Positions 15,522 through 34,333 of a DNA stretch of 35,119 nt are shown one piece after another; positions within the stretch are counted from its first letter, which is position 1, and every line of letters begins with the position of its first letter. A program made the position numbers and the translations under genes. The notes beneath the pieces are model-generated. The model made no database searches, was not told where the DNA came from, and was given only the letters and a program-made list of their open reading frames with translations. This DNA comes from a virus. Where the stretch lies: the IMG/VR virus record IMGVR_UViG_3300042308_000219, positions 1-35,119 of that record. The stretch is one strand, 5' to 3'.

Positions 15522-16544
15522 TTATTTAGTACTTATTGACGGAACAATTTGTTCTGCTGCCTTGGGGAATATTTTGCGCCAGTCGGTTCCGCGACGTTGA
15601 TCTATCCTGTCAAGATGCTTGATAACAATATCATGGCCACTGGTGACAGACATTGGACCTATTGTTGGATTTAGATCATGTGGTATCGGTCGACCCAGTT
15701 TATCATGTTTAAAATTTGTTGCAAACCAGTTTGTAATTTCGTCAACATAGCATTGGCTTAAAATATTAACTGTGGTATTGATGCCAAATGCTGTGTTTTT
15801 CCCACAATTGTCAATCATCCAACGAAAGTTTTCTATTGTCTGAGTCCAGTCTGCTGGATATCTTATGTATTCAAATCTTTCGCCAATGTCGTCTAGGCTA
15901 CAAAATACATCAATCCATTCGCATTCAGCCCAGACCTCTAGTAGTTCTGAACTGGGCTGTATTGTGCCATTGGTAGTATAATACAACTTGACCTTAGATT
16001 TGTTTGGTAGTGCTTGTAGAAATTCCACGTGTTCTTTACTGAGAAACGGTTCGCCGCCCCAAAAATGAATATTTTTTATATGACTTAAATCTAAGTTTTT
16101 CCATGAATCATTTATTATAGATTTTTTCATGTCTTTAATAAATCCAAGCTCCTGTTTCCACAAACTACTGTTAGAAGGTCCGCACATGATACAGGCTAAA
16201 TTGCAGATGTCACCAACCCAGTAATCCATATTTGTTAGTTCAACCGTGGGAACATCGCCAGGCCGGAGTGGAGGATTGTGGGCTGCCCAACTATCGTCAG
16301 CAATTTGCTTGCGACTGGGGAACCCCTGGCTTTCCATTTCAGTACATGATTTACACCCAACTGGTGGAGTTCCATCGATCCACTGTTGCCGAATTTTGAT
16401 CAATTCAGTGTTGTTCACAAAATCTACTGTTTCTGCCTGGAATATTGGATATATGCAACAAGGGGAAATAGCAGGTTTATTGTTACGGAATTCGATGCTG
16501 AGATTTTTAAATGGCTCTAGGCAAACGGTATTAGTATTGTTCAT
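15522..16544 (-). CDS. Radical SAM enzyme C, with N-terminal cysteine module
   Basis: A 340-residue radical SAM protein. N-terminal cysteines are C8, C29-C30 and C64-KS-C67; the core motif is C114-NLA-C118-IM-C121, then GGEPFLSKEH. It is a clear paralogue of the protein at 17506: they share YWxGD-CNLAC, SSxWKQEL, GGEP-LSKEH, DDIG-RFEY-RYPA and a C-terminal RRGTDWR. A CTAAATA late motif ends 6 bases before the ATG, leaving no ribosome-binding site, so the mRNA may be leaderless. The promoter region is divergent with that of the tail-fibre gene at 16613, suggesting both are made late. Substrate unknown; modification of a virion protein is a hypothesis. Radical SAM assignment is secure. Confidence 0.87.
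   Translation of the reverse strand: MNNTNTVCLEPFKNLSIEFRNNKPAISPCCIYPIFQAETVDFVNNTELIKIRQQWIDGTPPVGCKSCTEMESQGFPSRKQIADDSWAAHNPPLRPGDVPTVELTNMDYWVGDICNLACIMCGPSNSSLWKQELGFIKDMKKSIINDSWKNLDLSHIKNIHFWGGEPFLSKEHVEFLQALPNKSKVKLYYTTNGTIQPSSELLEVWAECEWIDVFCSLDDIGERFEYIRYPADWTQTIENFRWMIDNCGKNTAFGINTTVNILSQCYVDEITNWFATNFKHDKLGRPIPHDLNPTIGPMSVTSGHDIVIKHLDRIDQRRGTDWRKIFPKAAEQIVPSISTK
15523..15529 (-). promoter_or_regulatory. Late promoter motif overlapping a radical SAM stop codon
   Basis: CTAAATA on the minus strand, covering the last codons and stop of the radical SAM gene at 15522, 19 bases before the ATG at 15503. It would start the late transcript covering 15255-15503 and the genes below it. Confidence 0.55.
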
Positions 16545-16612: not shown

Positions 16613-17509
16613 ATGACTAGTCAGATCAACCCAAACAATATAGATGCTTCGTATCCTGTGGCCGGACAGCCCAACAACACCCAAGGCTTTCGTGACAATT
16701 TTACAGCAATTCAAACAAATTTTCAAGCCGCTGAGAACGAAATAAACGATCTTCAGAGCAAAGCTGTTTTAAAGGCCGCACTGACTGGTACCACATTGGA
16801 CAACAACATGAATGATGCGCTGATTTATGCGGCAAAAATTCAAGACTTTTCGGCCACATCAGTTGCAATCACTGCCACAGCAGGAAGTATTGTGGTGGAT
16901 TACAGTGCAGGACATTATCAAACTATTTCAACCACAGGCAATATCAATGTCAGCATTGGCAATTTTCCAACTGCTCCAGCGTTTGGATATATTAAACTAC
17001 AACTGGTAACAGATGCTCCCGGAAGAACTGTCACATTCTCTGGCATGACCACACTGTATGGCACCACAGGTGTTCAAGGCATGACTGGCAATACCATCAC
17101 ATTTGCTGCCACTGGCACCTATGAGTTTGCATTCCAGACCAACAGCGGTGGTACAACTGTTACCATGTTTGATCTAAATCGTCCTTTGTGTTTGTACACA
17201 AATCCATTGTTGTTGGCCAGTAGTGAAGACTTGGCTGCATCAGCGGCTGCAAGTTTGGCAACTACTGCCAGTTATTTTAGTACGTCAGCCGCCGAAACTG
17301 CCACTCTGGCTGCTGGTACTAATGGTCAAATCAAAACCTTTATGATGGCTGCCGACTCAGGCGACATGGTAATCACAGTGACCAATGCAGGATGGAAAGC
17401 AAGTGGCACAGGAACTATTACATTTGATGCCATTGGGGACGGTTGCACCCTACAGTACATTAACAGCAAGTGGTATTGTGTGGGCAACAACGGTTGTGTA
17501 TTTGCTTAA
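16613..17509 (+). CDS. Tail-fibre-like structural protein
   Basis: A 298-residue virion protein. The N-terminus (MTSQINPNNIDASYPVAGQ, NNTQGFRDNFTAIQTNF) is the attachment module found on fibre-like proteins of aquatic T4-like phages. The rest is Thr/Gly/Ala-rich beta structure (FGYIKLQLVTDAPGRTVTFS) with no charge clusters. The C-terminus has three cysteines (GDGCTLQY, then WYCVGNNGCVFA). It is the only plus-strand gene in the 9-19 kb region and lies between two paralogous radical SAM genes. Its TAA stop overlaps the TAA stop of the convergent gene within the palindrome TTAA. The start has AAAGGAAC upstream. Late expression is expected. Confidence 0.82.
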   Translation: MTSQINPNNIDASYPVAGQPNNTQGFRDNFTAIQTNFQAAENEINDLQSKAVLKAALTGTTLDNNMNDALIYAAKIQDFSATSVAITATAGSIVVDYSAGHYQTISTTGNINVSIGNFPTAPAFGYIKLQLVTDAPGRTVTFSGMTTLYGTTGVQGMTGNTITFAATGTYEFAFQTNSGGTTVTMFDLNRPLCLYTNPLLLASSEDLAASAAASLATTASYFSTSAAETATLAAGTNGQIKTFMMAADSGDMVITVTNAGWKASGTGTITFDAIGDGCTLQYINSKWYCVGNNGCVFA

Positions 17510-18468
17510 ACCAATTCAGGAAACGTTGTTCTCCAATCGGTTCCACGGCGTGCATCACATGCATTTAAAAATTCTATTGCAATCTCTTTTGACGAGGTAG
17601 TTGCTAGTCTCCCAATTGCCAATTGTTGCTGGTGCTCGATAGGATCTGCAAATCTAGACACAGAAAAGTTTTTCTGTAACCAGGCATTAAGATTGTCAAG
17701 ATTGTGATAATTCAACATGCTCACTGTGGTGTTTACATTAAACATACAATTATGCGGCGCATGATCAATGAACCACTGCAGATTATCTACAACTTGTTCC
17801 CATTTAGCCGGATAACGTTGGTATTCAAATCTTGATCCAATGTCATCAATGCTAAAATCTATCTGCACCAACTTGTACTGACTCCATAAATCCATCAATT
17901 CCTGGCTAGGAAGAACTGTTCCATTGGTGTTATAACTAACATATATGAGATTTTTATTGGATAGTGTATGCAACAATTTCACGTGTTCTTTACTGAGCAA
18001 CGGTTCTCCGCCATTGAAGTGAACATATCTTAAGTGGCTTGTATCCATTGAAGTCCAAAAATTATTAACAATAGTTTTTTTAGATTCAGTAGAGTAATTT
18101 AATTCTTGTTTCCAAACACTACTAGAGTCAGGACCGCATATTGCACATGCTAAATTGCACAAATCACCAGTCCAGTAATCTAATCGCACCAGTTCCACGT
18201 TAGTATTGTACATGTCGTTGTCACGATACCAATTATTACTTCCTTGCCTACGACTAATCATCCCTTGGTCTTCTGTTTGTTTGCAATTATTGCAAGCCTG
18301 TGGCCACTCTCCTTGGTGCCATGAATTTCTGACAGTTTGCAAGAATTTGTTGTTGTGAAAATCAATTTTTTCAGCACCTGTTTTTTGGGATAAACAGCAA
18401 GGTCCTAATTTTAAACCAGCAGACGGAACTACATTTAAATTTTTAAACGCATCTATACAATTATTCAT
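17506..18468 (-). CDS. Radical SAM enzyme D, with N-terminal cysteine module
   Basis: A 320-residue radical SAM protein and paralogue of the one at 15522. N-terminal cysteines are C4, C24-C25 and C59-NN-C62; the core motif is C104-NLA-C108-AI-C111, then GGEPLLSKEH. The C-terminus ends RRGTDWRTTFPELV, like its paralogue. The ATG overlaps the TGA stop of the helicase gene (ATGA), so unlike paralogue C it should be co-expressed with replication genes rather than from a late promoter. Its stop is shared with the convergent tail-fibre gene. The conserved N-terminal cysteines suggest an auxiliary Fe-S cluster. Substrate unknown. Confidence 0.87.
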   Translation of the reverse strand: MNNCIDAFKNLNVVPSAGLKLGPCCLSQKTGAEKIDFHNNKFLQTVRNSWHQGEWPQACNNCKQTEDQGMISRRQGSNNWYRDNDMYNTNVELVRLDYWTGDLCNLACAICGPDSSSVWKQELNYSTESKKTIVNNFWTSMDTSHLRYVHFNGGEPLLSKEHVKLLHTLSNKNLIYVSYNTNGTVLPSQELMDLWSQYKLVQIDFSIDDIGSRFEYQRYPAKWEQVVDNLQWFIDHAPHNCMFNVNTTVSMLNYHNLDNLNAWLQKNFSVSRFADPIEHQQQLAIGRLATTSSKEIAIEFLNACDARRGTDWRTTFPELV

Positions 18469-19937
18469 CCTTTTTTAATACCTGCCAGCATTTGTTTGAG
18501 TTTTGCACTTTGCACTTCAGCTGTGACTTTTTCTGTGTCTTCTGATTTTAACTCCTTGCCCCCTGCTTGATATTCCCAGGCATGTGTGCCTGTGGGCTTT
18601 TCCCACTTGGTAGATTTAGTGCTTTCAGTATCAACAGTGGTTATTTGGCTACGTGCTTTGATTGTGTCCATGATACTGCTTTGTGGCTTGTTGTAGCCGG
18701 TTCCTTCATCGCCGCCTTCGTCTGTAATACGCATGGTTTCAATGTTGTATTCTAAATCAATCTTTTGTCCCACGCCTGTTGAACTACGCGATTTCATACA
18801 CTGAATCTGATACTTGCCACGCTCTTTCATTGAACGACTGGTGAAGATACCAAACACGTTGTCAGCTGTATTGATCTTAGAGATACCTCCCGAAATGTGC
18901 GAGTGATCAAATTCAACTTCTTCTACTGCACTACGATTCAACTGAGACGCAGTAACCATTAACACTCCCAGCTCTTTGGCCAAATTACGTAATTCCTCAC
19001 TCACATACTTGTCTTTTACAAACAAATCATTGGGACTGACTTTTGCGCTTACTGGCATCAACAAATCCAAATAGTCAATCATTAAAAAATCTACTTGGAT
19101 TCCTGTTTGTATCTGCACTTCTTTAATGTAACTGCGGATATCGTTGATGTTGCTTTGTGCCGGCAATGCTTTTACACGATATTGTCCAGACTTTTTGCCC
19201 ACCAGCATGACCTTCATTGTGGTTGTGTCAATGTCCTTGCGAATGTCCTTGGTACTTGTTTGTGTTAACATAGCATCTGTACGCAAACTTGTGAGCTCTT
19301 CTGAAAGTTCTAGTGTGATATAAACCCCACTTAATCCTTGTTGTAGCCAGTTCAGTGCAATGTTCATCATGACCAAGCTCTTGCCCGAACCTGATCCGCC
19401 TGCAAAGATGTTTAGTTCTCCTCTTGAGAATCCACCATACAATAGTCTGTCCATTTGTGGCCAGCCTGTTGATACTTGCCCACCTGAGTTGAAGTATTTG
19501 TTGATACGTCCAGCAGGATCAGCAAAGTAGTCTGTGCCCATGTCTTTGGTGAGAGAAATTTGTACAGCATCTTTGATCAGTTTTTCAACAGGATCAAAGT
19601 CGCCTTTTTCCAACAAGTCTGCTGCCTTTAAAATAGCACGTTCAAGTTCTTGGCGCTTGGTAAACGATTCAAACTCGCCCATGAACCAATCATAATGACC
19701 TTGGTTCAGATCTGGCACTGGAGCAAGTTTAACTCCTGTGGTTGCAGAAATCTGCAACCTATCAGGCATGGTCTTGTGTTTGTCACTGTGTTCTTTGATA
19801 AACTCTGCGGCTTTGCGCAAGCTCCGGTCAAAGTTCTCTGGGTTGTAAATATTTTGAATGCGTACATAACTGCTCGCATCTTCCAACATCATCTCTAAAA
19901 ATAGTCGTTGGACATCAAGTCCGTATTCTTTTAGCAA
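18465..19937 (-). CDS. 41: Replicative DNA helicase, T4 gp41-type
   Basis: A 490-residue DnaB/RecA-fold hexameric helicase that unwinds DNA ahead of the fork and works with the primase. The N-terminal domain covers residues 1-130. The P-loop is GGSGSGKS at 180-187, the Walker B-type strand FLMIDYLDLL is at about 284-293, and TASQLNRSA is the DnaB-family sensor region. The C-terminal tail (after about 420) is charged and probably flexible. T4 gp41 is 475 aa. The start is TTG at 19935-19937, supported by AAGGAAG seven bases upstream; the first internal ATG would delete 15 N-terminal residues. It overlaps the primase gene by 23 bases, as expected for a primosome pair. Confidence 0.93.
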   Translation of the reverse strand: MLKEYGLDVQRLFLEMMLEDASSYVRIQNIYNPENFDRSLRKAAEFIKEHSDKHKTMPDRLQISATTGVKLAPVPDLNQGHYDWFMGEFESFTKRQELERAILKAADLLEKGDFDPVEKLIKDAVQISLTKDMGTDYFADPAGRINKYFNSGGQVSTGWPQMDRLLYGGFSRGELNIFAGGSGSGKSLVMMNIALNWLQQGLSGVYITLELSEELTSLRTDAMLTQTSTKDIRKDIDTTTMKVMLVGKKSGQYRVKALPAQSNINDIRSYIKEVQIQTGIQVDFLMIDYLDLLMPVSAKVSPNDLFVKDKYVSEELRNLAKELGVLMVTASQLNRSAVEEVEFDHSHISGGISKINTADNVFGIFTSRSMKERGKYQIQCMKSRSSTGVGQKIDLEYNIETMRITDEGGDEGTGYNKPQSSIMDTIKARSQITTVDTESTKSTKWEKPTGTHAWEYQAGGKELKSEDTEKVTAEVQSAKLKQMLAGIKKG

Positions 19938-20898
19938 GTTGTTTCTTCCTTATTTCTATCTTGATTTTACTTGTTTCTCTTGATTGCATAATAGTCAGCA
20001 AGGTTCCAAGTCGACCCAACTCTACCACAGCATCGTTTATATCTTTAACGTGCGCAGGCCAGTTGGGTATGCTCACAGCCCATCCTAGTTCTACAGCACG
20101 ATCAATTAGTTCTAGGCCAGCCACATCTTGGTCTGGCACTACTGTTATTTGTTTTCCTAGACTGCGTATGAGTCTAGCCTGTCCATCGCTGATGGTGTTG
20201 TGCATCACGGCAAGGCCTCCGATACTGAGTGCATCAAAGATACCTTCCATTACTAACGCATGGTCCCAGGCGGGGTTTTGTAGATCTGTGCCAAACACAT
20301 AGTTAGGTTGGCTGTCGGATATGTACTTAGGCGTTTTGTTGTCGAGAAATCTACATGTATAACCCACAATCTGATCATTATGGGTAAATGGAATTACCAC
20401 ATGCGGTCGTGTCCAGTGAACACCATCTGTTTGCAATTGTACCATTACAGGAAAGTCTTCCGGCACGCCTCGTTGGCGCACATAGTTTCTGTGGTCACCT
20501 TCTTCGGTCAACAGTTCAGCATATGGCGGCAAATCACGTTCTTCAAACTCAATCGTACTCAGTGTGTTAAAAGTTCGTTGACGATCTTCTAATATGCCAT
20601 TGATGCTTCTATGGCGCAGACTTTCTAGGTTGAGGAAATCAATTTCAGCATCGGGTACACCCATCCAGCTCAAGAGCCTGCGGGCTTTGAAGCTTACAGT
20701 GCGGCCAAGGATAAAGCTAGCAGTGTATCCACAGTTGAAGCAGTGATAACTCCAACCTTGTTCTGTGGCTTTAAGTCCACCACGTTGTCGTTTGTCTATG
20801 TTGTTGCCACTGTAACTGCAACAAACTGCATTGAAACTGATCCAACCAGATGGAGTCTGTTTGCGTTTGTTGGGTAAGTAGGAGACAATGTCTAGCAT
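19915..20898 (-). CDS. 61: DNA primase, T4 gp61-type
   Basis: A 327-residue primase that makes RNA primers for lagging-strand synthesis with the gp41 helicase. The N-terminal zinc-binding region has CC at 26-27 and HCFNC at 52-56. The TOPRIM catalytic part shows the glutamate motif ALVMEGIFDALS (E218) and the DxD motif VVPDQDVAG (D256, D258). T4 gp61 is 342 aa, so the length fits. A promoter whose -10 element ends 6 bases before the ATG lies in the gap upstream, and no ribosome-binding site can be seen between them, suggesting a leaderless message. The 3' end overlaps the helicase gene and supplies its ribosome-binding site. Confidence 0.93.
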   Translation of the reverse strand: MLDIVSYLPNKRKQTPSGWISFNAVCCSYSGNNIDKRQRGGLKATEQGWSYHCFNCGYTASFILGRTVSFKARRLLSWMGVPDAEIDFLNLESLRHRSINGILEDRQRTFNTLSTIEFEERDLPPYAELLTEEGDHRNYVRQRGVPEDFPVMVQLQTDGVHWTRPHVVIPFTHNDQIVGYTCRFLDNKTPKYISDSQPNYVFGTDLQNPAWDHALVMEGIFDALSIGGLAVMHNTISDGQARLIRSLGKQITVVPDQDVAGLELIDRAVELGWAVSIPNWPAHVKDINDAVVELGRLGTLLTIMQSRETSKIKIEIRKKQLAKRIRT

Positions 20899-20904
20899 CT
20901 GTAT

Positions 20905-20933
20905 AGTATAACAGATCTATCAACAAAGATCAA
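20905..20933 (-). promoter_or_regulatory. Sigma70-like promoter, leaderless geometry, for the primase
   Basis: On the minus strand: -35 TTGATC (20928-20933), a 17-base spacer, -10 TATACT (20905-20910), then six bases (ATACAG) and the primase ATG. It fills exactly the gap between the neighbouring genes. The predicted start site coincides with the start codon. Confidence 0.65.
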
Positions 20934-22004
20934 TCAACGATACATCAAATTGGTAATAGTACCATTGTTTATGATAACACTGGCATAGACCGGATTGCCA
21001 AACGTTATTGGCAAATATCCAGACCCAGGATCGGTTACTGTGATAGGTCCAATACCTCCATCAGATCCTATGCTGGCCACTGCTCGGGCTCCTGCACCAT
21101 TGCCCACAATTAACACATTTGGTGCGGCCACATAGTTTTGGCCGGTGTTGTTGACTGTGATACCCGTGACCATTCCGTCAACCACTGTGGCAGTGGCAGT
21201 GGCTCCAAACCCTTGGCTTTGGTTAAATGCCACTCGAAGTAGTGGATGGAACCCAAGTACATTAAGATAAATGCTTTCTGTTGCATCCAAATACTGTGTT
21301 GAATCTGTCACATCATACCAAGGTGCTTCATAGTCCTCGGCTGCCTGTGCTTTGATTGTGCCGGTGTAATGTGTTAGATCCATTTTGATTGTGGTCAAAC
21401 TGGCACCGTGTGTGGGAATTTGACTTGAATAAAATTCTGTTGCGTGTGCGGCATTTAATGGCTGCGGCGTAAGAGCCCAGTCAGGCCAGTCACTTGGTGG
21501 ATTTTGTGGCCATGCATTTGGTCCATAAATTGTGGGAATAGTCAAGTTGGCACTATCTTGAAACTCGGGCAGTATTGAATCCACAATATTACAGTCGGCT
21601 CGAGCTTGTGAGTTGGCATCTGTATATACTGCTTGAACGTAATTGCCCGAAGTGCGTTGGATGCTGTAGCTGGCAGGCTGTGCCACCAAATCAATGGTAT
21701 CTTCTGTGGTCAGCACTACCTTGACTCTGCCAAGTGCGGCACTGAGAGTTTCCATCGGTTTGCTGAGTAGCAGTACATCGCCATTTTGGCTGATCATACG
21801 GAACACAAATGTGCTGCCGGTAATGTTTACAGGTTTTTGTTCCTGGTTAATAAATTCAAACAAAAGCACATTATCAACGCCTTTGTTAACAGTTAATTGT
21901 TTTGCGTACACTGGATCGTACCTCGCTGTGAAATAGCCACCGCTGGTGTCAATCAATAACACTCTGGTGATTTGCTGATATAAGTAAACGGTGGTGGAAT
22001 ACAT
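20934..22004 (-). CDS. Virion structural protein (baseplate/tail type)
   Basis: A 356-residue structural protein starting MYSTTVYLYQQITRVLLIDT, an N-terminus I recall from virion proteins of aquatic T4-like phages. Residues up to about 150 form a beta-sandwich-like region (VLLFEFINQEQKPVNITG). The C-terminal 100 residues contain two copies of a repeat ending G-x-x-Y-x-x-x-P (GQNYVAAP and GSGYLPI), common in phage baseplate and fibre proteins. I chose the ATG at 22002-22004; a longer frame to 22163 would run antisense through the divergent gene. A CATAAATA late motif ends 7 bases before this ATG. Exact virion position unknown. Confidence 0.8.
   Translation of the reverse strand: MYSTTVYLYQQITRVLLIDTSGGYFTARYDPVYAKQLTVNKGVDNVLLFEFINQEQKPVNITGSTFVFRMISQNGDVLLLSKPMETLSAALGRVKVVLTTEDTIDLVAQPASYSIQRTSGNYVQAVYTDANSQARADCNIVDSILPEFQDSANLTIPTIYGPNAWPQNPPSDWPDWALTPQPLNAAHATEFYSSQIPTHGASLTTIKMDLTHYTGTIKAQAAEDYEAPWYDVTDSTQYLDATESIYLNVLGFHPLLRVAFNQSQGFGATATATVVDGMVTGITVNNTGQNYVAAPNVLIVGNGAGARAVASIGSDGGIGPITVTDPGSGYLPITFGNPVYASVIINNGTITNLMYR
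21979..21986 (+). promoter_or_regulatory. Possible late promoter for the plus-strand gene at 22017
   Basis: TATAAGTA on the plus strand, one mismatch to the T4 late consensus, 30 bases upstream of the ATG at 22017 and inside the 5' end of the opposing structural gene. Confidence 0.4.
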
Positions 22005-22011
22005 AGAACAA

Positions 22012-22019
22012 TATTTATG
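22012..22019 (-). promoter_or_regulatory. Late promoter motif, leaderless geometry, for structural protein
   Basis: CATAAATA on the minus strand (7 of 8 to TATAAATA), then seven bases (TTGTTCT) and the ATG at 22004. The same bases contain the start codon of the divergent gene at 22017. Confidence 0.6.
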
Positions 22020-22394
22020 GGTAATAATATCTTTGACAAATTGACGGAAAAGTATCCGTTTATCACGCTGTGCGTGTATGCAAACGTGGAGTACGTAGGG
22101 GTGGTTCAGAACCGGGACGATGCAGTCACAACTATCTACGACTTTGGTAGTATACCACTGCAAGAAGACAAAATGAAGTTCTTGGAACTGGCCACAACAT
22201 GGTGGTGGGAAAGCAACAGATCTATCCCCATTAACATATTTTTGCGTACAGAGTGGGAGCCGTTCCGTTACACCTTGAGAACCTTTGTCAACAAAGATTT
22301 AGAAATCTTGCATGGACCTGCTTGTAGTTTACTAGATATATCTCGCAAAAAGAGCAAGCGTAAATCAATTACACTGGTGCGACGTCTTGATTAA
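22017..22394 (+). CDS. Conserved phage protein, unknown function
   Basis: A 125-residue protein (MGNNIFDKLTEKYPFITLCVYANVEYVG) with a mixed alpha/beta pattern, a WWWESNR segment and a basic C-terminus (ISRKKSKRKSITLVRRLD). Very similar short proteins recur in marine T4-like phages as I recall, with no assigned function. It diverges from the structural gene, with only 12 bases between the two start codons, and its 3' end overlaps the convergent gene at 22369 by 26 bases. No recognisable catalytic residues. The basic tail could contact nucleic acid, which is speculation. Confidence 0.75.
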   Translation: MGNNIFDKLTEKYPFITLCVYANVEYVGVVQNRDDAVTTIYDFGSIPLQEDKMKFLELATTWWWESNRSIPINIFLRTEWEPFRYTLRTFVNKDLEILHGPACSLLDISRKKSKRKSITLVRRLD

Positions 22395-22947
22395 GCAAGT
22401 TCATGTGCAACACAACCAACATTGCATAAGACAAGCTGTGTGATTTTTTAAACGTGTATCCCTGACTATCGTCCCCGTTCCATACACTCTCAAATACATC
22501 TGCCCAGGACTGATTTTGCAAGTGTGCCTTGCCTGGTCTAATAATACTAATAAATGCTGCCATCTGTGGTATGGTTGTTGGGCGCATGTTCTTCAACAAG
22601 TCTGTGTAATTGCCCACGTGAACCAATTGCTTGGACCAGTTGGTATCTTGCCAAAGTCTATCCCAAGCCGGAGTAGCTGTTAACATCTCTTGATAGTGCT
22701 CAGGATTTTTAATCAATTGATACACACTCATATTCAAAAAGTCTATTTTAAAATACCCACGCTGTTCAGCTTCTTCGTATTCCAATGCCGCACAGTTGTT
22801 TATGGGATCGTAGGGAATGTCTGTAACATACACCCCAGAATTATGACGTCGTACTTGACCTTGTGTGATCTGCCGTGCAGGAGTATACTGTATTAGTTTC
22901 AGTATGCTTTCTCTATCAGCAAAGTCAATGTCAATGTCCGCACTCAT
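22369..22947 (-). CDS. Miniature C-family DNA polymerase-like protein
   Basis: A 192-residue protein that strings together conserved blocks of bacterial DNA polymerase III alpha (DnaE/PolC). It has DIDIDF at residues 4-9 (catalytic aspartates D6 and D8), RHNSGVYV at 34-41 (the HxxGV block), GYFKIDFLNM at 64-73 (third catalytic Asp, D69), and FKKSHSLSYAML at 166-177 (the KSH-A-Y finger block). DnaE is about 1,160 aa; PHP, thumb and most of the fingers are missing. The metal-binding triad is retained, so it may still bind metal or nucleic acid, but polymerase activity is doubtful. The start ATG at 22945-22947 overlaps the upstream TGA stop (ATGA). A longer in-frame start would lie inside the SGNH gene. 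I cannot name an established role. Confidence 0.7.
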   Translation of the reverse strand: MSADIDIDFADRESILKLIQYTPARQITQGQVRRHNSGVYVTDIPYDPINNCAALEYEEAEQRGYFKIDFLNMSVYQLIKNPEHYQEMLTATPAWDRLWQDTNWSKQLVHVGNYTDLLKNMRPTTIPQMAAFISIIRPGKAHLQNQSWADVFESVWNGDDSQGYTFKKSHSLSYAMLVVLHMNLLNQDVAPV

Positions 22948-23675
22948 AATCTCATGTCCTCTAATATAGATTGTACATGTGGCCATAGCCATGTGTCAAC
23001 CAATTGCTGTGATTCCGCAGTTGCATAGTGTCCACAATCAGTTTTTTTGAGCATCATACGATTGCATTCTGCGGCTGCCGATCCGGGTACAATGTTAACA
23101 ACATCCTTTAACCATTCGTATCCTGGTAATATCAATTCAGTGCTGTCAACAAACCAAGAGAAGAACACAAGAGGTTTTTTCCATTGGTCACATAGTGCTT
23201 TGATTGCCAACATGTTGTGAATAGTTTGGTAATCATAAAATCTTGTGCCTGCTACTTCTCGTAACCAAAACTTATCCAGGTCGCCCGAATCTTGTCCAGT
23301 CAGTGTATCTAACCACCGTCGGTTGTCATGTACATTCATGGTATAACAACCAATGTCTTTGTAAATGTTATTGTGACCGGGATCGTAGTAATCTCTAGGT
23401 GCAGGGATTGGATGTGCTCGATTGCCTGCTTGTATGTCCTGCCAGGTTTGTAGTCCGATTACAACTCTAGCAGGTTCTGTAAGTTGAACAATTACCAAAT
23501 CCACTTCAGGATCTTTAACAATGTCATGACACTTTTCTACATAGAATGCATTGCCAGCCCCGGCACTACATGCACGGACTAAACTGCTTTGTAAGCGGTC
23601 GCTCACATGATCCGGCCAGCTACGTCCATACTTGGTTGTGGAAAAGCTATCACCAATTGCTGCCAACTTTTTCAT
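22944..23675 (-). CDS. SGNH/GDSL-type hydrolase
   Basis: A 243-residue SGNH-superfamily protein. Block I is IGDSFS (G8-D9-S10, nucleophile Ser10), a glycine/asparagine block is SAGAGNAF, and the catalytic Asp/His pair is in TDCGHYATAES (D213, H216). Members hydrolyse esters, for example acetyl groups on polysaccharides or lipids. No signal peptide, so it acts in the cytoplasm or on the virion. I start at ATG 23673-23675, which overlaps the upstream TAA (TAATG); a TTG two codons earlier is less likely. Together with the glycosyltransferases near 30-35 kb it could be part of a glycan-modifying set, which is inference. Confidence 0.75.
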   Translation of the reverse strand: MKKLAAIGDSFSTTKYGRSWPDHVSDRLQSSLVRACSAGAGNAFYVEKCHDIVKDPEVDLVIVQLTEPARVVIGLQTWQDIQAGNRAHPIPAPRDYYDPGHNNIYKDIGCYTMNVHDNRRWLDTLTGQDSGDLDKFWLREVAGTRFYDYQTIHNMLAIKALCDQWKKPLVFFSWFVDSTELILPGYEWLKDVVNIVPGSAAAECNRMMLKKTDCGHYATAESQQLVDTWLWPHVQSILEDMRL

Positions 23676-24364
23676 TACCAACCTGCTTGGGTTAAAATCT
23701 CTTTGGCATACTCTTGATCTGCTGGGTAGTCATGAAACTTCTTGGCCCAGGCGTCACTATCAATGTATGGCCAAATCATTGCAATCTGCGATGAGTTTAA
23801 GTTGTTCAAAAACTCTTGACCAGATGCTGAGTTATAAATCACCCAGGGCGATATACGTCCAGTTGTAACTGCATGACATAGTACATTACCATTGCCGTAA
23901 CGCAAACAGTCATGTGTTGGATGTGTGGTCTTTTCACTCCAGTCAATACTGTACTCTATTGCACGGGCTAGAGCATCTGCCACAGCTTCTACCCGTAGAT
24001 AAAACAACAAGTACTCTGTGTAGATTTTGTCACTGCACCAATGATCAATTTTCTTGTTGTTCTTGAGTAACCAAGTCATAAACTGTGCAGGATTGATAGC
24101 TCGTGTGTTTACGCAATAGCGACCAAACTTTACAAAGGCTCGGTAGTACGGCGAATCACAAAAGTCCTCAAACGTTTTGAGTTTGGCTGACCCTTGTGCC
24201 ATTTCATAGAACTTGATATAGGCCTGAAAGCCCAGTTGTACACCGCGCTCACTTTGTTCCATTCGACGTCGTTTGGGCTCGCACATGTGTACTGCAATAG
24301 AGCTTTCTCTTGCAAACTCTTTCTTGCAAAACTCACATGTAAACTTACTTGTTGTCTCGGCCAT
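23675..24364 (-). CDS. Zinc-finger phage protein
   Basis: A 229-residue protein with an N-terminal zinc-finger-like motif, C10-EF-C13-x12-H26-x-C28 (FTCEFCKKEFARESSIAVHMC), followed by a basic patch (EPKRRRMEQ). The remaining 190 residues are helical with many aromatics (FVKFGRYCVNTRAINPAQFM) and match no enzyme I know. Zinc-finger proteins of this size are found among T4-like aquatic phage replication genes. Nucleic-acid binding is likely given the finger and basic patch, but the target is unknown. The start is the ATG at 24362-24364 with AGAG upstream; a TTG at 24385 would extend it further into the upstream gene. It overlaps the gp62-like gene by 20 bases. Confidence 0.7.
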   Translation of the reverse strand: MAETTSKFTCEFCKKEFARESSIAVHMCEPKRRRMEQSERGVQLGFQAYIKFYEMAQGSAKLKTFEDFCDSPYYRAFVKFGRYCVNTRAINPAQFMTWLLKNNKKIDHWCSDKIYTEYLLFYLRVEAVADALARAIEYSIDWSEKTTHPTHDCLRYGNGNVLCHAVTTGRISPWVIYNSASGQEFLNNLNSSQIAMIWPYIDSDAWAKKFHDYPADQEYAKEILTQAGW

Positions 24365-24797
24365 GTGCTCTAATGTATTGATCAAGTTCTTTTTTGGTTG
24401 TTATTGCTGCCATAACATCTATCTCGTCAGACTTGTAGTGTGGGAACAGCTCTGCCAATTGTTTTTTTATGCTGCCAACACCTGCTTCTTTTTTCTTGGG
24501 AGCAATCCAATTGTGTCTCATTGCACCTAGTCCTGGGCTCACAGTTGTGGCCATGAGCCATTGCAGTTTGCGATGTCGTGTTGAGTTGATGTTAAAGAAG
24601 TTTTTGTTCAGTCTCTCATTGGTAGCAATCACATAAAACTCTTGCAAGTCTCTTGAGCCTTCTACTGCTGATCCCCAACGTATCATGAGAAACGGTGCAA
24701 ACTTCTTGCGCTCTTCATCTGTTAACTCGTCGTAGAAATCTCTGACCTTATGATCAAACATTTTCATCTCGTTAGCAATGCTTAGTTTATCAGTCAT
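24345..24797 (-). CDS. Probable clamp-loader small subunit, gp62-like
   Basis: A 150-residue helical protein. The segment KKFAPFLMIRWGSAVEGS followed by ATNERLNKNFFNI, LQWLMATTV and MRHNWIAPKKK follows the layout I associate with T4 gp62: a PFMxNR-type helix, an NEMN-type turn and a W-K ending. gp62 bridges five-subunit gp44 rings in the sliding-clamp loader. It is smaller than T4 gp62 (187 aa), like aquatic-phage versions. No gp44 or gp45 gene is adjacent here, which weakens the call. The ATG overlaps the end of the upstream gene by 8 bases. If not gp62, it is an unassigned replication-region protein. Confidence 0.5.
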   Translation of the reverse strand: MTDKLSIANEMKMFDHKVRDFYDELTDEERKKFAPFLMIRWGSAVEGSRDLQEFYVIATNERLNKNFFNINSTRHRKLQWLMATTVSPGLGAMRHNWIAPKKKEAGVGSIKKQLAELFPHYKSDEIDVMAAITTKKELDQYIRAHGRDNK

Positions 24798-25032
24798 GTG
24801 TTTTCTTTAGATTATACAACACAAATAGTTGGTCCAACAACTCTCGCATGGCCGGATCGTGTTCACACATTTGTAGCACTTGATTTATTTCGCTACGATA
24901 TTCTCTCATAGCAATGCTTTCGCTATCAGTCCAACCCACTAACTGTCGCTTAATTTGACCCATTTCCCGAGCATAGATTCGATTGTCTACCCGCTCGTAA
25001 ATGTAAGTTGTACTTGGTTTGAGACTTCCCAT
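24790..25032 (-). CDS. Small conserved phage protein, unknown function
   Basis: An 80-residue soluble protein starting MGSLKPSTTYIYERVDNRIYARE, then a helical half (AMREYRSEINQVLQMCEHD). Similar MGSLKP-type short proteins appear in aquatic T4-like phages in my memory, always unannotated. The ATG at 25030-25032 has AAGGAAAA upstream. It lies 6 bases after the upstream gene and overlaps the gp62-like gene by 8 bases, so it belongs to the uvsW-to-polymerase-like transcript. No motif indicates function. Confidence 0.7.
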   Translation of the reverse strand: MGSLKPSTTYIYERVDNRIYAREMGQIKRQLVGWTDSESIAMREYRSEINQVLQMCEHDPAMRELLDQLFVLYNLKKTHD

Positions 25033-25038
25033 TTTTCC

Positions 25039-25539
25039 TTACCAGGCCTTGTTATAATCCACAATTTCACAGTTACGACTAATGTCTTTGACAAAGTACA
25101 CACACTCAGGCTCGGCGCCATCAGTAATTGGCACCGCTAGCATTTGACCATTTTTAAGTTTAGGAGCATACCATGATACTTCATGATACACATCTAAAAT
25201 TTCAATGTCCGGAAAACTAGGGCGGAAACTGGTCAATGGATTAAACTGAAATACCTTGAACCCACGATCGTTGATTGATGTCAGAGGCAACACTTCTAAG
25301 TCACCAATCTCAGGTTCGCCAATTAGCACTTGCCAGTCCATGGGCATCTTGATTGTGTTATCGCCTATGCGTAATACCAGTGCCGGACTGTTAAAGCTCT
25401 CTAAAAAGATCAACGGAATAAAGTGATAGTCAGGATCTGCTGGATTAGAGTTATCTAGTATAGCAAACCTCATGTCATCCACCTCTTCAGGCAAGTGGTC
25501 AAGGTCATAGTGTTGATTGTCTAGTGTTAGTATTCGCAT
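25039..25539 (-). CDS. Conserved phage protein, unknown function
   Basis: A 166-residue acidic beta-rich protein (MRILTLDNQHYDLDHLPEEV, PMDWQVLIGEPEIGDLEVLP, DVYHEVSWYAPKLKNGQML). It resembles unassigned proteins beside replication genes of marine T4-like phages, as I recall. No catalytic motif, signal or membrane segment. A promoter with TTGACT and TAATAT separated by 17 bases lies in the 37-base gap after uvsW, with only six bases between the -10 box and the ATG and no ribosome-binding site, so a leaderless start is predicted. Confidence 0.7.
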   Translation of the reverse strand: MRILTLDNQHYDLDHLPEEVDDMRFAILDNSNPADPDYHFIPLIFLESFNSPALVLRIGDNTIKMPMDWQVLIGEPEIGDLEVLPLTSINDRGFKVFQFNPLTSFRPSFPDIEILDVYHEVSWYAPKLKNGQMLAVPITDGAEPECVYFVKDISRNCEIVDYNKAW

Positions 25540-25545
25540 AGTAGT

Positions 25546-25574
25546 ATATTACAGTATTTCGTAGTAGAAGTCAA
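25546..25574 (-). promoter_or_regulatory. Sigma70-like promoter, leaderless geometry
   Basis: On the minus strand: -35 TTGACT (25569-25574), a 17-base spacer, -10 TAATAT (25546-25551), six bases (ACTACT), then the ATG at 25539. It fits exactly between the uvsW stop and the next gene. Confidence 0.65.
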
Positions 25575-25576
25575 GT

Positions 25577-27046
25577 TTATTTGATCTTCATCCACTCTAA
25601 TTTTTCTACTGAGAACGGATAGTTGGCTTCCTTGTAGAATTGTTTGCGTTTGGTTAGATGTCGTTTGGCAAACTTACATGTTGATGTTATGTCCCAGATC
25701 TGTACATGGTCTTTGTCTTCTGCTTTACGTATGCCACGACCAATTGACTGTATAACACGCACAAAACTCTTGCCCGGTTCAATAAGCACTAGATTAAAAA
25801 TACGTGGAATGTTAATACCCACAGCAGCCACGCCATATGTGGCCACAATGATTTTGCCTGTTGCTTCGGCCACTTCGTCATATTCATCTTGTCTGGCTTT
25901 TGCTTTGGTTGCGCCACTCACAAACACAGCACCGTCGCCCAGTCGTTCTACCAATTGCCTGCCACATTCTGTTCTGTCTACTAACACAAGTGTGTTGCCT
26001 GTTTCGTTAACCCTGCGCACAAGGTCTGCCATGGTATCCAATCTACCCGATTCTTCCAGCAGGTATTTAAGCTCACTTTGATAGTTTGAGTATTCCACAT
26101 GATCCACCAACTGCACAATGTTAACATGACACTGCGCCAGCACACCACGATCCTGTAGTTCACTTGCACTGAGTTTACTAACAACAGGGCCAAGACCAAC
26201 TAGTAATGCCTGGCTCTCAAACTTCTCTTTGGGTATGGTTCCGGTCAGGCCCCAACGAATTGGCACTCTAGCCATGATGCCTGTTAGCAAGGTTTTGAGT
26301 GCATCTGCTTTGGCCATGTGTACTTCATCCACAATAACACACACCACATCTTCCATGAAGTCCTGTATGGTAAATTTTGCTGTGCCTTCTTTTGAATCTT
26401 TAAGCAGGTTATTTAGACTTTGCCAAGTACAGATAGTATGTGTCTTGCCGTAGTCTTTCCTATCACCAAAATACACACCAACATCCAGCCCCAAGTTAAC
26501 ATAGTCTTTTTCTGTTTGTGTTACCAAGCTCTTGTTGGGCACAATTACAATTGATCTACCATAAGGTTGTACGTTCCAACTCAAGGCTGCTGTCATGATA
26601 GTCTTGCCTGCACCTGTGGCCACTTCTTGTATGCATTGCGGATTCTGCAAGTAGTTGTTGATGATCTCTACTTGGTAATCTCGCAACACAATGGGTTCAC
26701 CCTCTTGTGGGTGTCCTTTGGGCCATAGTGTGCCAGAAAATGTATCTTCCTTCATCAACGCAAACTCAAATGTAGTTGAATACTCGCGCTGGTCATCTAG
26801 TTCAATGTCGTAGTTGTACTGTTCTAAGATAGGAATAATCTCAGGCAACAGATTGGTGTATGTGCTACCACCAAGTTGGAAGTAGGCAATCTTGCCATCC
26901 CACCTCCCAAGTCTCACAGCAGGCAAATACCTTGCTGCCGGATTCTCGTACTTAAAAGTATTAACCAGTTTTTTACGCACATCCAAATCAAGCCCTTCTA
27001 GTTTGATATTGACTTCGTCACGTATTTGTATTGTGCATTGTTTCAT
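25577..27046 (-). CDS. uvsW: ATP-dependent helicase UvsW
   Basis: A 489-residue superfamily 2 helicase (T4 UvsW is 503 aa). In T4 it branch-migrates recombination intermediates and unwinds R-loops, switching replication from origin- to recombination-dependent. The N-terminal DNA-binding part is residues 1-110. Helicase motifs are Walker A ATGAGKT at 143-149, DEVH at 240-243 (motif II), LTGT at 267-270 (motif III) and QSIGRGIRK at 432-440 (motif VI). The ATG overlaps the upstream TGA stop (ATGA). It is followed by an independent promoter for the next gene. Confident by motif order and N-terminal similarity (LGRWDGKIAYF). Confidence 0.95.
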   Translation of the reverse strand: MKQCTIQIRDEVNIKLEGLDLDVRKKLVNTFKYENPAARYLPAVRLGRWDGKIAYFQLGGSTYTNLLPEIIPILEQYNYDIELDDQREYSTTFEFALMKEDTFSGTLWPKGHPQEGEPIVLRDYQVEIINNYLQNPQCIQEVATGAGKTIMTAALSWNVQPYGRSIVIVPNKSLVTQTEKDYVNLGLDVGVYFGDRKDYGKTHTICTWQSLNNLLKDSKEGTAKFTIQDFMEDVVCVIVDEVHMAKADALKTLLTGIMARVPIRWGLTGTIPKEKFESQALLVGLGPVVSKLSASELQDRGVLAQCHVNIVQLVDHVEYSNYQSELKYLLEESGRLDTMADLVRRVNETGNTLVLVDRTECGRQLVERLGDGAVFVSGATKAKARQDEYDEVAEATGKIIVATYGVAAVGINIPRIFNLVLIEPGKSFVRVIQSIGRGIRKAEDKDHVQIWDITSTCKFAKRHLTKRKQFYKEANYPFSVEKLEWMKIK

Positions 27047-29966: not shown

Positions 29967-30704
29967 TTACTTCCAAAGGTCTTGTACTACTTTATCGTTA
30001 ATTTTGTGGGGTTTGGGGTTGCCATGAAATACTAAAACAGAAGTATTACCGTCAATAAGTGTGCCCTGGCCAGGTGCTCTGTGCTTTCTATACTGAAAGT
30101 CGTAGCCGCCATCAAAGCATTGCCACCGCCAACTTTTTAACTGTGCGTCATCAAAGTAACGAATTCTGTTGTGGCCAAGTGCGGCATATAGGTAGTCTTG
30201 ATCTCCCGGGTACTGTCTTGACAGTTTGGCAATGTCATTATTTTTAAACTTTTCCCATATCCATGCATGATGTTTGACATTCCACCACATCACACTAGAA
30301 TTCAATGTGTTAATTTTGGGATTTTGTAAATGTCTAAAATCTCTAATGCCCCAGAGATAGTTGGGGTCTAATTGAGTAATCCAACTTACATCACGCACAA
30401 CAATTGTGTCAAGATCAAAGTAAAGCAAATTGCCTTCGTGATGTTCTGGATTAAACACCTGCAGTTTATGCCACCATGATTTTTTTGGTCCTGCAATACC
30501 TGGCCAGTCTTGTAATATATGTTTGATCATGTAAGGAGGCACACTACGGTCATGTTCGGTGTAAACATGAAACCGCAGTCCCCCGGGTAAGTTACGTTCC
30601 AACATGTTGTACAACCGTTCAACATAGGTCCAGTCGTATCCGGTGCTGTGTATCACACAGGCACAATCAGTTACACCAGTGCTGATTCTATTCTTTTTAG
30701 CCAT
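29967..30704 (-). CDS. GT-A-type glycosyltransferase
   Basis: A 245-residue glycosyltransferase-like protein. It has a Rossmann-like start (TDCACVIHSTGYDWTYVERL), the metal-binding DxD motif in LLYFDLDTIV (D97, D99), an acceptor-region GDQDYLY and a C-terminal VFHGNPKPH whose His is typical of GT8-like metal ligands. It probably transfers a sugar from a nucleotide donor onto a phage or host molecule in the cytoplasm. The ATG follows AAGG and the gene overlaps the upstream capsule-type gene by 34 bases. It starts the glycan module that runs to the window end; acceptor unknown. Confidence 0.75.
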   Translation of the reverse strand: MAKKNRISTGVTDCACVIHSTGYDWTYVERLYNMLERNLPGGLRFHVYTEHDRSVPPYMIKHILQDWPGIAGPKKSWWHKLQVFNPEHHEGNLLYFDLDTIVVRDVSWITQLDPNYLWGIRDFRHLQNPKINTLNSSVMWWNVKHHAWIWEKFKNNDIAKLSRQYPGDQDYLYAALGHNRIRYFDDAQLKSWRWQCFDGGYDFQYRKHRAPGQGTLIDGNTSVLVFHGNPKPHKINDKVVQDLWK

Positions 30705-31513
30705 AAGCCTTGTTCTAATTCTGGTACAGTATATTCAGTGTGGCTGATTTGAGTAAGCCACAATTGTCTATCTAGGTCATACGGTTGTTCTATGTCAGCA
30801 ATGTCAACTCCTACAGGATAGGCCAAGCTGGTAAAATCTACAATGGGTCTAGCACCTGATATGGCTGCCTGTATGCCTGGTCCAGAATTATAGTTAACAA
30901 TAGCATGACAATCTAGACCCAAATCAAAACTGTCGTATGTGTTGGATACTCGGTTAGGTGATTCAATTTTGACTCCTGTTAGCCCTGCTGTGTTAAGACT
31001 GCATCTAGGATGTGGTCTAACATGTATGGGTCTATCTGTATTATTTCTCAATGTTTCTATTTGCAATCGTATCCATTGATCAAGGTTAACATTTGCTATT
31101 TGTTCACTTTGTGTGTGCTGTGCCGCAATCACAATGTGAGACTTTGAATTTGTAGGCATGCGTAGTTTTAAATGCATCTTGCCCGGACGGTCCCAATCTA
31201 AATTATCTAGGTGTCCGTAATATCCGTGAGAATTAATGTTGTTCACAGCAACCTTCCATGTGGTGCCTCGATTTAACGCACCAATGTCAATGATGATCAC
31301 TGGCTTGCCTTGTGATCTGTAGTGTCTATAGATGTTCTCATTGGCCGCCATTCTACCGGACCACAATGCTGACCATATTAATAGTGCATCTGAATCTTGG
31401 CCACGCTCTTGCGGTTCTATACCGGCCTTGCGCAAAGCACTAAGCATGGCATTCATAGGAGGGCCACCATTCAGGGCACGTTGTAAAGGATAATATGCTA
31501 TGTTTTTAATCAT
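30671..31513 (-). CDS. GT-B/capsule-synthesis-like protein, paralogue 1
   Basis: A 280-residue protein with features of GT-B/capsule-polysaccharide-type transferases: IHVRPHPR (about residue 160), then HAIVNYNSGPGIQAAISGARPI near 205-227, the nucleotide-sugar-binding-like Gly/Ala-rich loop, and a C-terminal helix. It is related to the proteins at 32325 and 34314 by the shared LDxW-T-RP-xIRP and NS-A-G-P segments. Its ATG is only 11 bases from the start codon of the divergent glycosyltransferase gene, so their promoters lie in each other's coding sequence. A TATAAT at 31529-31534 could be the -10. Donor and acceptor unknown. Confidence 0.6.
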   Translation of the reverse strand: MIKNIAYYPLQRALNGGPPMNAMLSALRKAGIEPQERGQDSDALLIWSALWSGRMAANENIYRHYRSQGKPVIIIDIGALNRGTTWKVAVNNINSHGYYGHLDNLDWDRPGKMHLKLRMPTNSKSHIVIAAQHTQSEQIANVNLDQWIRLQIETLRNNTDRPIHVRPHPRCSLNTAGLTGVKIESPNRVSNTYDSFDLGLDCHAIVNYNSGPGIQAAISGARPIVDFTSLAYPVGVDIADIEQPYDLDRQLWLTQISHTEYTVPELEQGLWLKRIESALV

Positions 31514-31524
31514 AAGTATTTTTG

Positions 31525-32328
31525 ATGAATTATACTGTATGTACCACTTTTAACGCCGCTGGGTATGAGAAATACGGCCAGCGAATGATACAAACTTTTT
31601 TGCAAAACTGGCCTGCTGAGGTGCAATTGGTTGTGTATGCTGAAAAATGCATAGTAAGTGAATCAGCACCCAACTTGATTGTACGTGATCTGGAAACGTC
31701 TAGCCCTGAATTGGTTGCGTTTAAACACAAGTGGCAAGGTGTGCCCAAAGCTAATGGTAATGTCAGTCAAGATCCAGTAAGAAGCAAACGCAAAGATGCG
31801 GGCAAAGGGTTTAAATGGGACGCTGTGAGATTTGCTCACAAGGTGTATGCTGTATTCCATTGTGCTAAAACTGCTACGTCTACATGGTTGTTATGGATGG
31901 ATGCAGATACCATATGCCATAGCCCAATTACCACAGGAGATATTGCTAGGTTATGTCCAGAACAAACAGATCTATGTTTCTTGGGACGTCGTGGAAAGTT
32001 CAGCGAGTGTGGATTGTATGCCATGAACTTGGATAGTCCTGCTACCAAATTGTTTCTAAACAAGTTTCAGCAATCGTACGATGATGCAGATAATGGCATA
32101 TTTAAACTAGACGAGTGGCACGACTCATTTGTATTTGATGCTGTGCGTCGTAGTAGTACGTTGATAGAATCAGATTGGTCCAGCCACTTGATCACGGGAG
32201 AAGGGCATCCGTTGATTAATTCTGCATGGGGAGCCTGGTTAGATCATTTAAAAGGTGCTAGAAAGAACACAGGTCGTAGCCCCGCTAGTGATCTCAAAGT
32301 CGCAAGAACAGAAGCATACTGGCAATGA
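31525..32328 (+). CDS. GT-A-type glycosyltransferase
   Basis: A 267-residue glycosyltransferase. The N-terminus (MNYTVCTTFNAAGYEKYGQR) and the DxD motif in WLLWMDADTI (D126, D128) mark a metal-dependent GT-A enzyme. Acceptor-region aromatic residues follow (LGRRGKFSECGLYAMN). I start at ATG 31525; a TTG one codon earlier is possible. CATAAGTA at 31511-31518, six bases before the ATG, could be a late promoter. The stop overlaps the next start (ATGA), so the two genes are coupled. It probably decorates phage DNA, virion or host envelope glycans; the substrate cannot be seen. Confidence 0.75.
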   Translation: MNYTVCTTFNAAGYEKYGQRMIQTFLQNWPAEVQLVVYAEKCIVSESAPNLIVRDLETSSPELVAFKHKWQGVPKANGNVSQDPVRSKRKDAGKGFKWDAVRFAHKVYAVFHCAKTATSTWLLWMDADTICHSPITTGDIARLCPEQTDLCFLGRRGKFSECGLYAMNLDSPATKLFLNKFQQSYDDADNGIFKLDEWHDSFVFDAVRRSSTLIESDWSSHLITGEGHPLINSAWGAWLDHLKGARKNTGRSPASDLKVARTEAYWQ

Positions 32329-33128
32329 ATTGGATTTTTCTCAACAAAAACAACAACGATGAGTACATAGAAATGTTTGCTCGTGGTTGTGGCTCTGCTC
32401 CCACTGAATTAGAGACCTGGGATTATAACAGCAGCCGGGATCCGTTGGTGATTCGCGGCATTATGAAACACAAAATTATCAAACAGTGCTGGCAAGATAA
32501 ACGCGAGTTCTTGTACATAGACTCAGGCTATCTTGGTAATCGCCGCTACGTCAAGAATCCACGTGGTGATAAAATTTGGCATAGAATTGTACCAAATAAT
32601 TTACAACACAACACCATAATCAACCGCCCGCCAGATCGATATCACCAACTTGGGCTGAGTCCAATGGCACCAAAAAAGAATGGTCGAAAAATTCTAATTG
32701 CTGCGCCAGATGAGAAGCCTTGCATATTTTACAATATCAAACTGGATGAATGGTTACACACCACTGTTGAAACAATAAAACAACACACTGATCGTCCTGT
32801 TGAAATTAGACAAAGAAATCCCAGTCGACAAACTCGTGTAGCCAACGATTTAGAATCAGCACTAGCTGATGTTCATGCCTTGGTTACATTTAATTCAATT
32901 GCGGCCACAGAAAGTATATTAGCCGGAGTACCAGCTTTTGTGCTGGCATCAACTAATGCGGCATTGCCAGTGTCCAACACTGATCTTGCTAAAATAGACA
33001 CTCCTTGGTACCCAGACAGAAATCAAATTGAAACATGGCTGTCGCATCTTGCTTACTGCCAGTTCTCTAACACTGAGCTAGCAAATGGAACTGCCCTTAG
33101 AATATTACAGGAGACTTACAATGTATGA
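32325..33128 (+). CDS. GT-B/capsule-synthesis-like protein, paralogue 2
   Basis: A 267-residue relative of the proteins at 30671 and 34314. The LDEWLHTTVETIKQHTDRPV segment and TFNSIAATESILAGVPAF loop align with theirs. The RPHP motif of the paralogues is replaced by RQRNPSRQ, so the donor-binding part has diverged and it may have another or no activity. The N-terminal part (MNWIFLNKNNNDEYIEMFAR) also differs. The start overlaps the upstream stop (ATGA), and the stop overlaps the next gene by 8 bases. Function is inferred from paralogy only. Confidence 0.55.
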   Translation: MNWIFLNKNNNDEYIEMFARGCGSAPTELETWDYNSSRDPLVIRGIMKHKIIKQCWQDKREFLYIDSGYLGNRRYVKNPRGDKIWHRIVPNNLQHNTIINRPPDRYHQLGLSPMAPKKNGRKILIAAPDEKPCIFYNIKLDEWLHTTVETIKQHTDRPVEIRQRNPSRQTRVANDLESALADVHALVTFNSIAATESILAGVPAFVLASTNAALPVSNTDLAKIDTPWYPDRNQIETWLSHLAYCQFSNTELANGTALRILQETYNV

Positions 33129-33771: not shown

Positions 33772-33772
33772 T

Positions 33773-34333
33773 ATGACACTAATAGACAAAGCATATCAAA
33801 AACAACTAAACCGCATGCATGCCAGGGGCAAGTTCAACAACGGAGCCAAGGCATACAAGATTGTAGAAAAATTTATCAATCAATACCAACCCACAAGTCT
33901 ATTAGACTTTGGATGTGGCAAAGGAGCATTAATTGCTGGCATTAATGAGTTTCATCCTGCTATGCTTACTCAAGGGTATGACCCTGGAAATCCTGACTTT
34001 GCAGAGTTGCCTGACAGAACATTTGATGCTGTGGTCAGCACTGATGCATTAGAACATGTTGAACCAGTGCATCTTGACAAGACCCTACACATGATTGGCA
34101 GCAAGATCGAACGTTGTGGGTTTTTTAGAATTGCCTGTTACCCTGCCAAAAAGAAACTGCCCGACGGCCGCAACGCTCATTTGATTGTGGAATTACCCGA
34201 GTGGTGGAGACACAAAGTGGAAGCAGAAATGGGTGTTCGTATTGTTTGGGAAGAAATTAGCGAATTTGATAAAACTGACAAGTGGGCGTGGGTCAAAGGC
34301 CACAACTACGATATCATTGTAGAAAAGGCATAA
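33773..34333 (+). CDS. Class I SAM-dependent methyltransferase
   Basis: A 186-residue class I methyltransferase. Motif I LLDFGCGKG (43-51) binds SAM; FDAVVSTDALEHV is the typical post-motif segment. A C-terminal helical part ends in NYDIIVEKA. I start at ATG 33773 (after AAATAAT); a longer frame begins inside the FkbM gene. It probably methylates a small molecule or glycan precursor; the acceptor is unknown. Its 3' end overlaps the convergent gene on the other strand by 20 bases, with no terminator visible between them. Confidence 0.8.
   Translation: MTLIDKAYQKQLNRMHARGKFNNGAKAYKIVEKFINQYQPTSLLDFGCGKGALIAGINEFHPAMLTQGYDPGNPDFAELPDRTFDAVVSTDALEHVEPVHLDKTLHMIGSKIERCGFFRIACYPAKKKLPDGRNAHLIVELPEWWRHKVEAEMGVRIVWEEISEFDKTDKWAWVKGHNYDIIVEKA

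Follow-up and report, generated by a model that had tools for sequence, protein, structure and literature searches.

Group 2.2 jumbo phages have been described by Iyer et al. 2021 (PMC7824862) to encode a minimal Pol III alpha that is split into two proteins. This description was made by computation. The two genes are distant from each other and are found beside a family-B polymerase. The authors suggested that the split Pol III might contribute to the synthesis of one strand or to repair, and they interpreted it as a model for ancestral Pol III. One half, here termed A, had been noted in phage CBB in 2017 as a truncated alpha subunit of 172 amino acids (PMC5259590), followed in 2018 by a report of an alpha subunit in Atu_ph07. 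PHROGs names both halves (phrog_11778 and phrog_11127) 'DNA polymerase'. A jumbo-phage review from 2026 is silent on DNA polymerases, and no experimental work on the A–B pair was found in the literature searched. In bacteria, PHP and (HhH)2 domains are nearly universal in C-family members, and the metal ligands of Escherichia coli DnaE are D401, D403 and D555 (PMC3919608). The dNTP (dATP) is reported to be contacted in the E. coli enzyme by R362, R390, R709 and R710 (PMC4374717), and H760 of E. coli Pol III alpha is a proposed steric gate against ribonucleotides (PMC8485763).

Here, a stretch of 35,119 nucleotides of viral DNA (IMG/VR virus record IMGVR_UViG_3300042308_000219, hereafter the window) was analyzed, which encodes the other half, termed B. 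A sequence-only reading of the window had described this protein as a miniature C-family palm that may have a new role. The protein is not newly seen, since the split had been described by Iyer et al. and both halves carry PHROGs names. B of the window is one more member of the already described split Pol III. No basic difference from the system of the group 2.2 jumbo phages was apparent: the family is the same, and in the relatives so are the division into two genes, their distance and the presence of a family-B polymerase. The window differs in being a fragment from uncultured-phage data that lacks its own A.

The gene for B lies on the minus strand at positions 22369-22947. It starts with an ATG at 22947, ends with a TAA at 22369 and encodes 192 amino acids. 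A second in-frame ATG is located upstream at 22992; 22947 is supported as the start because the sequence MSADID is kept there in close relatives. B was matched over its full length by phrog_11778 (residues 3-188 against positions 7-194 of 197, E=8.8e-56). With Pfam and NCBIfam, the sole match in B was a piece of the Pol III finger that stayed below the threshold, and the relationship to Pol III is therefore remote by sequence. A search of solved structures with the single B sequence gave nothing significant (best E=1.3). Single-sequence and Pfam searches were thus too weak, and profiles and a fold comparison were required to place B. By tblastn, 63 phage records matched B over at least 80% of its length with 30-44% identity, and a viral-contig scan identified at least 590 IMG/VR candidate stretches that encode a B relative. 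The length and boundaries of B were the same in more than 90 homologues. Comparison with the nearest relatives gave dN/dS values of 0.04-0.12, with a median of 0.11 (99 pairs). The protein is therefore no random remnant, as had been argued from its sequence. When 84,980 species genomes were searched, only 11 loci were found, all of them in metagenome-assembled genomes, and there is thus no sign of a bacterial chromosomal family. B is present on two large contigs filed as bacterial metagenome-assembled genomes (PBPT01000016.1, 335 kb, locus L381; CASEYV010000001.1, 283 kb, locus L390), which are probably mis-binned jumbo phages.

The fold of B was predicted with AlphaFold2 as a single chain, based on an alignment of 41 sequences taken from viral contigs and the window. 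The resulting model had a mean pLDDT of 90.7 and a pTM of 0.82, and its best Foldseek matches were all Pol III alpha. With VIA-align, 187-188 of the 192 residues were superposed on Pol III alpha of Thermus aquaticus, E. coli and Mycobacterium tuberculosis and on PolC, with an rmsd of 3.0-4.0 Å. Against 14 C-family entries, Z scores ranged from 6.1 to 9.8 (9.8 to 3e0d and 9.7 to 3f2b), while unrelated chains reached at most 3.8. Superposition on DnaE had been proposed by the sequence-only reading as a check of its C-family assignment, and the predicted fold agrees with C-family polymerases and with nothing else at a comparable Z. Together, the open reading frame, the phrog_11778 match and the fold bear out the assignment. 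B corresponds to about residues 399-780 of DnaE (E. coli numbering). About half of this stretch is deleted. The thumb is missing, as is a large part of the fingers. B covers less than the full catalytic core, as the GRGS half of the palm lies outside B and outside the window. The earlier description of a 'miniature C-family palm' is correct in that B is a true reduced palm/finger protein. It is not supported in the sense of a self-contained unit, since the half with the nucleotide pocket is encoded elsewhere in the genome, at a distance that is usually tens of kilobases.

The motifs quoted in support of that description (DIDIDF, RHNSGV, GYFKIDFL and KKSHSLSYA) are all present in B, so that its claim of conserved blocks stands for these motifs and falls short for the complete core. 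Residues of B were matched to DnaE by sequence, and all positions given in the following are on the minus strand. D4-I-D6-I-D8 (22924..22938) corresponds to D401, D403 and D405 and provides the first two metal ligands. The third ligand, D555, is matched by D69 in K67-x-D69 (22741..22749, within K67-I-D69-F-L). Both motifs were invariant in 91 homologues. All metal-binding aspartates are thus kept, as had been claimed, and the proposed look at relatives found the Asp residues in 91 of 91. The RPG motif of the fingers, R137-P138-G139-K140, is located at 22528..22539; K140 is invariant in the phage family and is a Pro in E. coli DnaE. F166-K-K-S-H170-S-L-S-Y174 (22426..22452) was aligned to DnaE 742-767, with H170 at the position of H760. 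The motif R34-H35-N-S-G38 is also present. In a profile alignment, the kept blocks of B were placed at DnaE 597-642 and 742-767. Conservation was 100% in the 91 B homologues for D4, D6, D8, H35, G38, K67, D69, R137, P138, K140, H170 and Y174, and Y174 was still at least 90% conserved in a more divergent set of 41 B sequences.

The missing half of the palm was found by comparing the phrog_405 C-family profile with ten complete or long phage genomes. B was placed at profile positions ~579-809, and a second short ORF, A, was detected at positions ~340-437 in all ten. The A ORFs span 170-213 codons between stops, contain the motif G-x-G-R-G-S-S, in which G-R-G-S is invariant, and end with EFLK or EFLN. 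A is phrog_11127 and passes the Pfam cut-off for DNA_pol3_alpha. Its profile was aligned to DnaE 285-392. The A model (pLDDT 84.5), which was also run with Foldseek, was aligned to DnaE 275-393 with Z scores of 10-12 and no further. The N-terminal third of A (residues 1-66; L308:8001-8522) lies outside the DnaE match. As A stops at 393 and B starts at ~399, the palm is cut once, between the FLN and PDIDID motifs, and each side forms a separate gene. This single split site was found across divergent phages, with A ending in xEFL and B beginning with DIDID. An intact polymerase active site is accordingly not present in one chain, the GRGS half being a second protein. The genes for A and B are ~11-225 kb apart in phage records and ~96-108 kb apart in the nearest large relatives of the window. 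A was not found in the 35 kb window, which is a genome fragment, and is present far from B in the large contigs of its nearest kin (G001, G002 and G003). Because the fragment has no A gene of its own, we infer the pair for the window phage from these relatives.

Co-occurrence of the two halves was strict. By tblastn, A was recovered from 60 of the 63 phage records that encode B. Among the other three, A was detected with a profile in Slicko01, to which Slickus01 is a near-identical sister, and PP728206 is a partial record of 109 kb. Hence 62 of 63 B phages carry or very probably carry A, with one partial exception. Conversely, B was present in every record among the top split-type A matches. 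In viral contigs, A was found in all three B-bearing contigs of at least 176 kb, and B in seven of eight A-bearing contigs of at least 228 kb. The exception is a viral contig of 359 kb (G012, locus L145), in which A is present and B was not detected; this contig may be incomplete, or B may be lost or highly divergent. A family-B polymerase was identified in 10/10 phages and in 10/11 viral contigs, the single miss being a fragment of 39 kb. None was seen in the window fragment, and one is present in G001-G003. The expectation that the reduced C-family protein resides in phages with a family-B main polymerase was thereby supported for these relatives. A family-A polymerase as main enzyme of these phages was considered and rejected, as no convincing one was seen in any genome checked.

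B is located within a replication module. Downstream of it lie conserved genes for a DNA primase (19915..20898, minus strand) and a DnaB-like replicative helicase (18465..19937, minus strand), and upstream a conserved gene for a UvsW-like helicase (25577..27046, minus strand). The 3′ end of B is overlapped by the 3′ end of a small convergent gene on the plus strand (phrog_11637, 22017..22394), and a convergent gene is found at the same place in most relatives examined. Comparison of window positions 18465-27046 with loci L003-L008 and L012 revealed that B sits in a conserved order with UvsW, a series of short unknown genes, the convergent small gene, primase and DnaB; the locus of XacN1 was the most rearranged of those compared. 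The start of B is overlapped by four bases (ATGA) by a gene for a GDSF-motif protein (22944-23681, minus strand), which appears SGNH-hydrolase-like by eye and had neither a PHROG nor a Pfam match. Further conserved replication-module genes of the minus strand are located at 23675-25539 (phrog_11058 with a weak zinc-finger match, phrog_11758 and phrog_11279). In many relatives, a DnaQ-like exonuclease is encoded as a separate protein close to UvsW or to B, and could act as a proofreader. Such an exonuclease has been noted for CBB (PMC5259590) and Atu_ph07, and none was recognised in the window.

Compared with bacterial DnaE (E. coli, T. aquaticus, M. tuberculosis), the palm, a part of the fingers, the aspartates, the GRGS motif (in A) and the RPG and KSH motifs are shared. 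In contrast to DnaE, A and B are two chains and lack the PHP, thumb, HhH, clamp-binding and OB parts. No Pfam match to PHP or (HhH)2 was obtained, with A starting at about DnaE 275 and B ending at about 780. PolC of Geobacillus kaustophilus (3f2b) has the same palm/finger fold, and B was aligned to it over 188 residues at 3.5 Å. The differences are those seen for DnaE; in addition, PolC holds an embedded exonuclease and an OB domain according to the literature. Single-chain phage polymerases (phrog_405, phrog_11165 and phrog_12219) have the same catalytic domain, but in one chain and with thumb and full fingers.

A further difference concerns the residues that contact the dNTP. The equivalent of R362 is invariant in A. 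At the position of R390 (A4 alignment position 171), A has Glu in 43 of 45 sequences and Asp in the other two, a conserved charge reversal in the palm. The profile alignment and the structural alignment of A agree in this register. Single-chain phage polymerases have an Arg here in the FLN motif (ARFLN). The finger stretch with R709 and R710 is deleted in B, and the residues that replace it in the window protein (141-165) are without arginine. Taken together, three of the four dNTP-contact arginines are gone in A and B, and R362 alone is kept. K140 of B may partly compensate for the lost arginines. In consequence, the A–B pair may be a weak polymerase, a partner-dependent polymerase or an enzyme with a different substrate. 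This arginine pattern is a point added beyond Iyer et al. 2021 and was not found in the literature searched.

The analysis shows homology, a split into complementary halves, catalytic residues that do not vary, joint occurrence, purifying selection and a place in the replication module, and we regard the homology, the A/B split and the conservation of the catalytic site as near certain. A is likely to assemble with B, and an activity of the pair on DNA appears moderately probable. B would be the Mg2+-binding, template-side half of a two-protein minimal C-family polymerase core, and A would contribute the other half of this palm, with the GRGS nucleotide pocket. Assembly would most likely reuse the former intramolecular interface of the palm, where the chain is broken between DnaE 393 and 399, and would rebuild a nucleotidyltransferase active site. 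Working over short ranges beside the family-B replicase, the assembled pair would most likely extend DNA ends with deoxynucleotides as an accessory enzyme, with gap filling, primer hand-off or repair as proposed roles. With moderate confidence, we infer that A and B together serve the phage replisome as an accessory nucleotidyltransferase or polymerase. A two-chain enzyme is favoured because the metal site, the GRGS pocket and the steric-gate His are conserved and A and B are strictly paired, and a role in replication or repair because B lies beside primase and DnaB. With the PHP, thumb, HhH and clamp-binding parts missing, the pair would grip DNA poorly without a partner. Counting against this explanation are the loss of three dNTP-contact arginines and the 359 kb contig with A in which B was undetected.

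Three of the four arginines that contact the triphosphate are lost or charge-reversed, while the metal and sugar sites are frozen. Such a pattern would be compatible with an active nucleotidyltransferase whose chemistry or substrate is other than that of templated DNA synthesis, which we consider rather unlikely overall. Its acceptor could be a DNA or RNA end, a protein or a small molecule, or its product a nucleotide; the pair would then no longer be a templated polymerase. The invariant metal ligands, GRGS and H760 equivalent combined with the loss of arginines and template-gripping parts would fit such a transferase, as would K140, a family-specific invariant Lys adjoining the RPG motif. 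However, the genes lie within the replication module and the retained sugar steric-gate His fits dNTP use, and a transferase to another acceptor is unlikely. The extreme reduction, the complete family-B polymerase and the lost arginines would also suit a replisome part that is not catalytic or is regulatory, such as a sensor of nucleotides or primer ends or a factor for polymerase exchange. Metal-binding aspartates that are invariant across very divergent phages are unexpected for a pseudoenzyme, and we judge this role improbable. B alone resembles the core of the host enzyme and might be a decoy or inhibitor that binds host DnaE or the beta clamp, as the sequence-only reading had raised. No positive evidence for such interference was obtained: a scan for clamp-binding motifs found none in B and one chance-like match among 45 A sequences. 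B co-occurs strictly with A, keeps its catalytic residues and lies in the replication module, not among host-takeover genes. Interference with host DnaE is therefore unlikely, and a decoy acting as B alone highly improbable. Finally, B has one sixth of the length of DnaE, as might be expected if it were what remains of a decaying, horizontally acquired DnaE, or an assembly artefact. This was rejected on the basis of the uniform length and boundaries and the dN/dS of about 0.1, together with the invariant active site, and we give it virtually no credence. Should the two-chain enzyme be active, no smaller C-family polymerase would be known, and no other one made of two palm halves with a gene each. 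It would reveal how small a part of a bacterial replicase suffices, and why a second polymerase core is kept by a phage that has a complete family-B replicase. Direct testing is possible, as more than 500 related sequences are available in virus data and the isolates RaK2, 121Q, PBECO4 and PA5oct can be grown.

Some relatives carry, beside B, a third polymerase. This is a single-chain C-family protein of 570-620 amino acids without a recognised PHP domain, whose gene adjoins the DnaB gene (L125:76-1875, minus strand; G008:C1, about 25.5-27.3 kb; also L220-L299). The contig G008 (39 kb), with a B that is 73% identical to that of the window, encodes a version of 599 amino acids next to the DnaB gene. 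An A-like match in G008 was considered as a fused A–B protein; this was rejected, as the match is an intact C-family polymerase that is encoded separately and exists beside B. At least 135 relatives were found by scanning, and B was within the fetched flank in 31 of 80 loci. The Asp motifs were present in 76/76 long single-chain ORFs and in 31/31 accompanying B proteins examined. In eight contigs with the single-chain polymerase, all of them fragments, no separate A gene was detected. This third polymerase is a second point that goes beyond Iyer et al. 2021 and that was not found in the literature searched.

Elsewhere in the window, iron-sulphur genes are located on the minus strand at 6476-9472, 15522-16544 and 17506-18468. 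They encode an IscU/NifU-type scaffold, an IscA-type carrier and three Pfam-supported radical SAM proteins. A fourth relative, which bears CxxxCxxC and has no Pfam match, is found at 6476-7792. A run of likely glycosyltransferase-like and methyltransferase genes occupies positions 29967-35090, including an FkbM-type match at 33085-33771, and perhaps serves surface or DNA modification.
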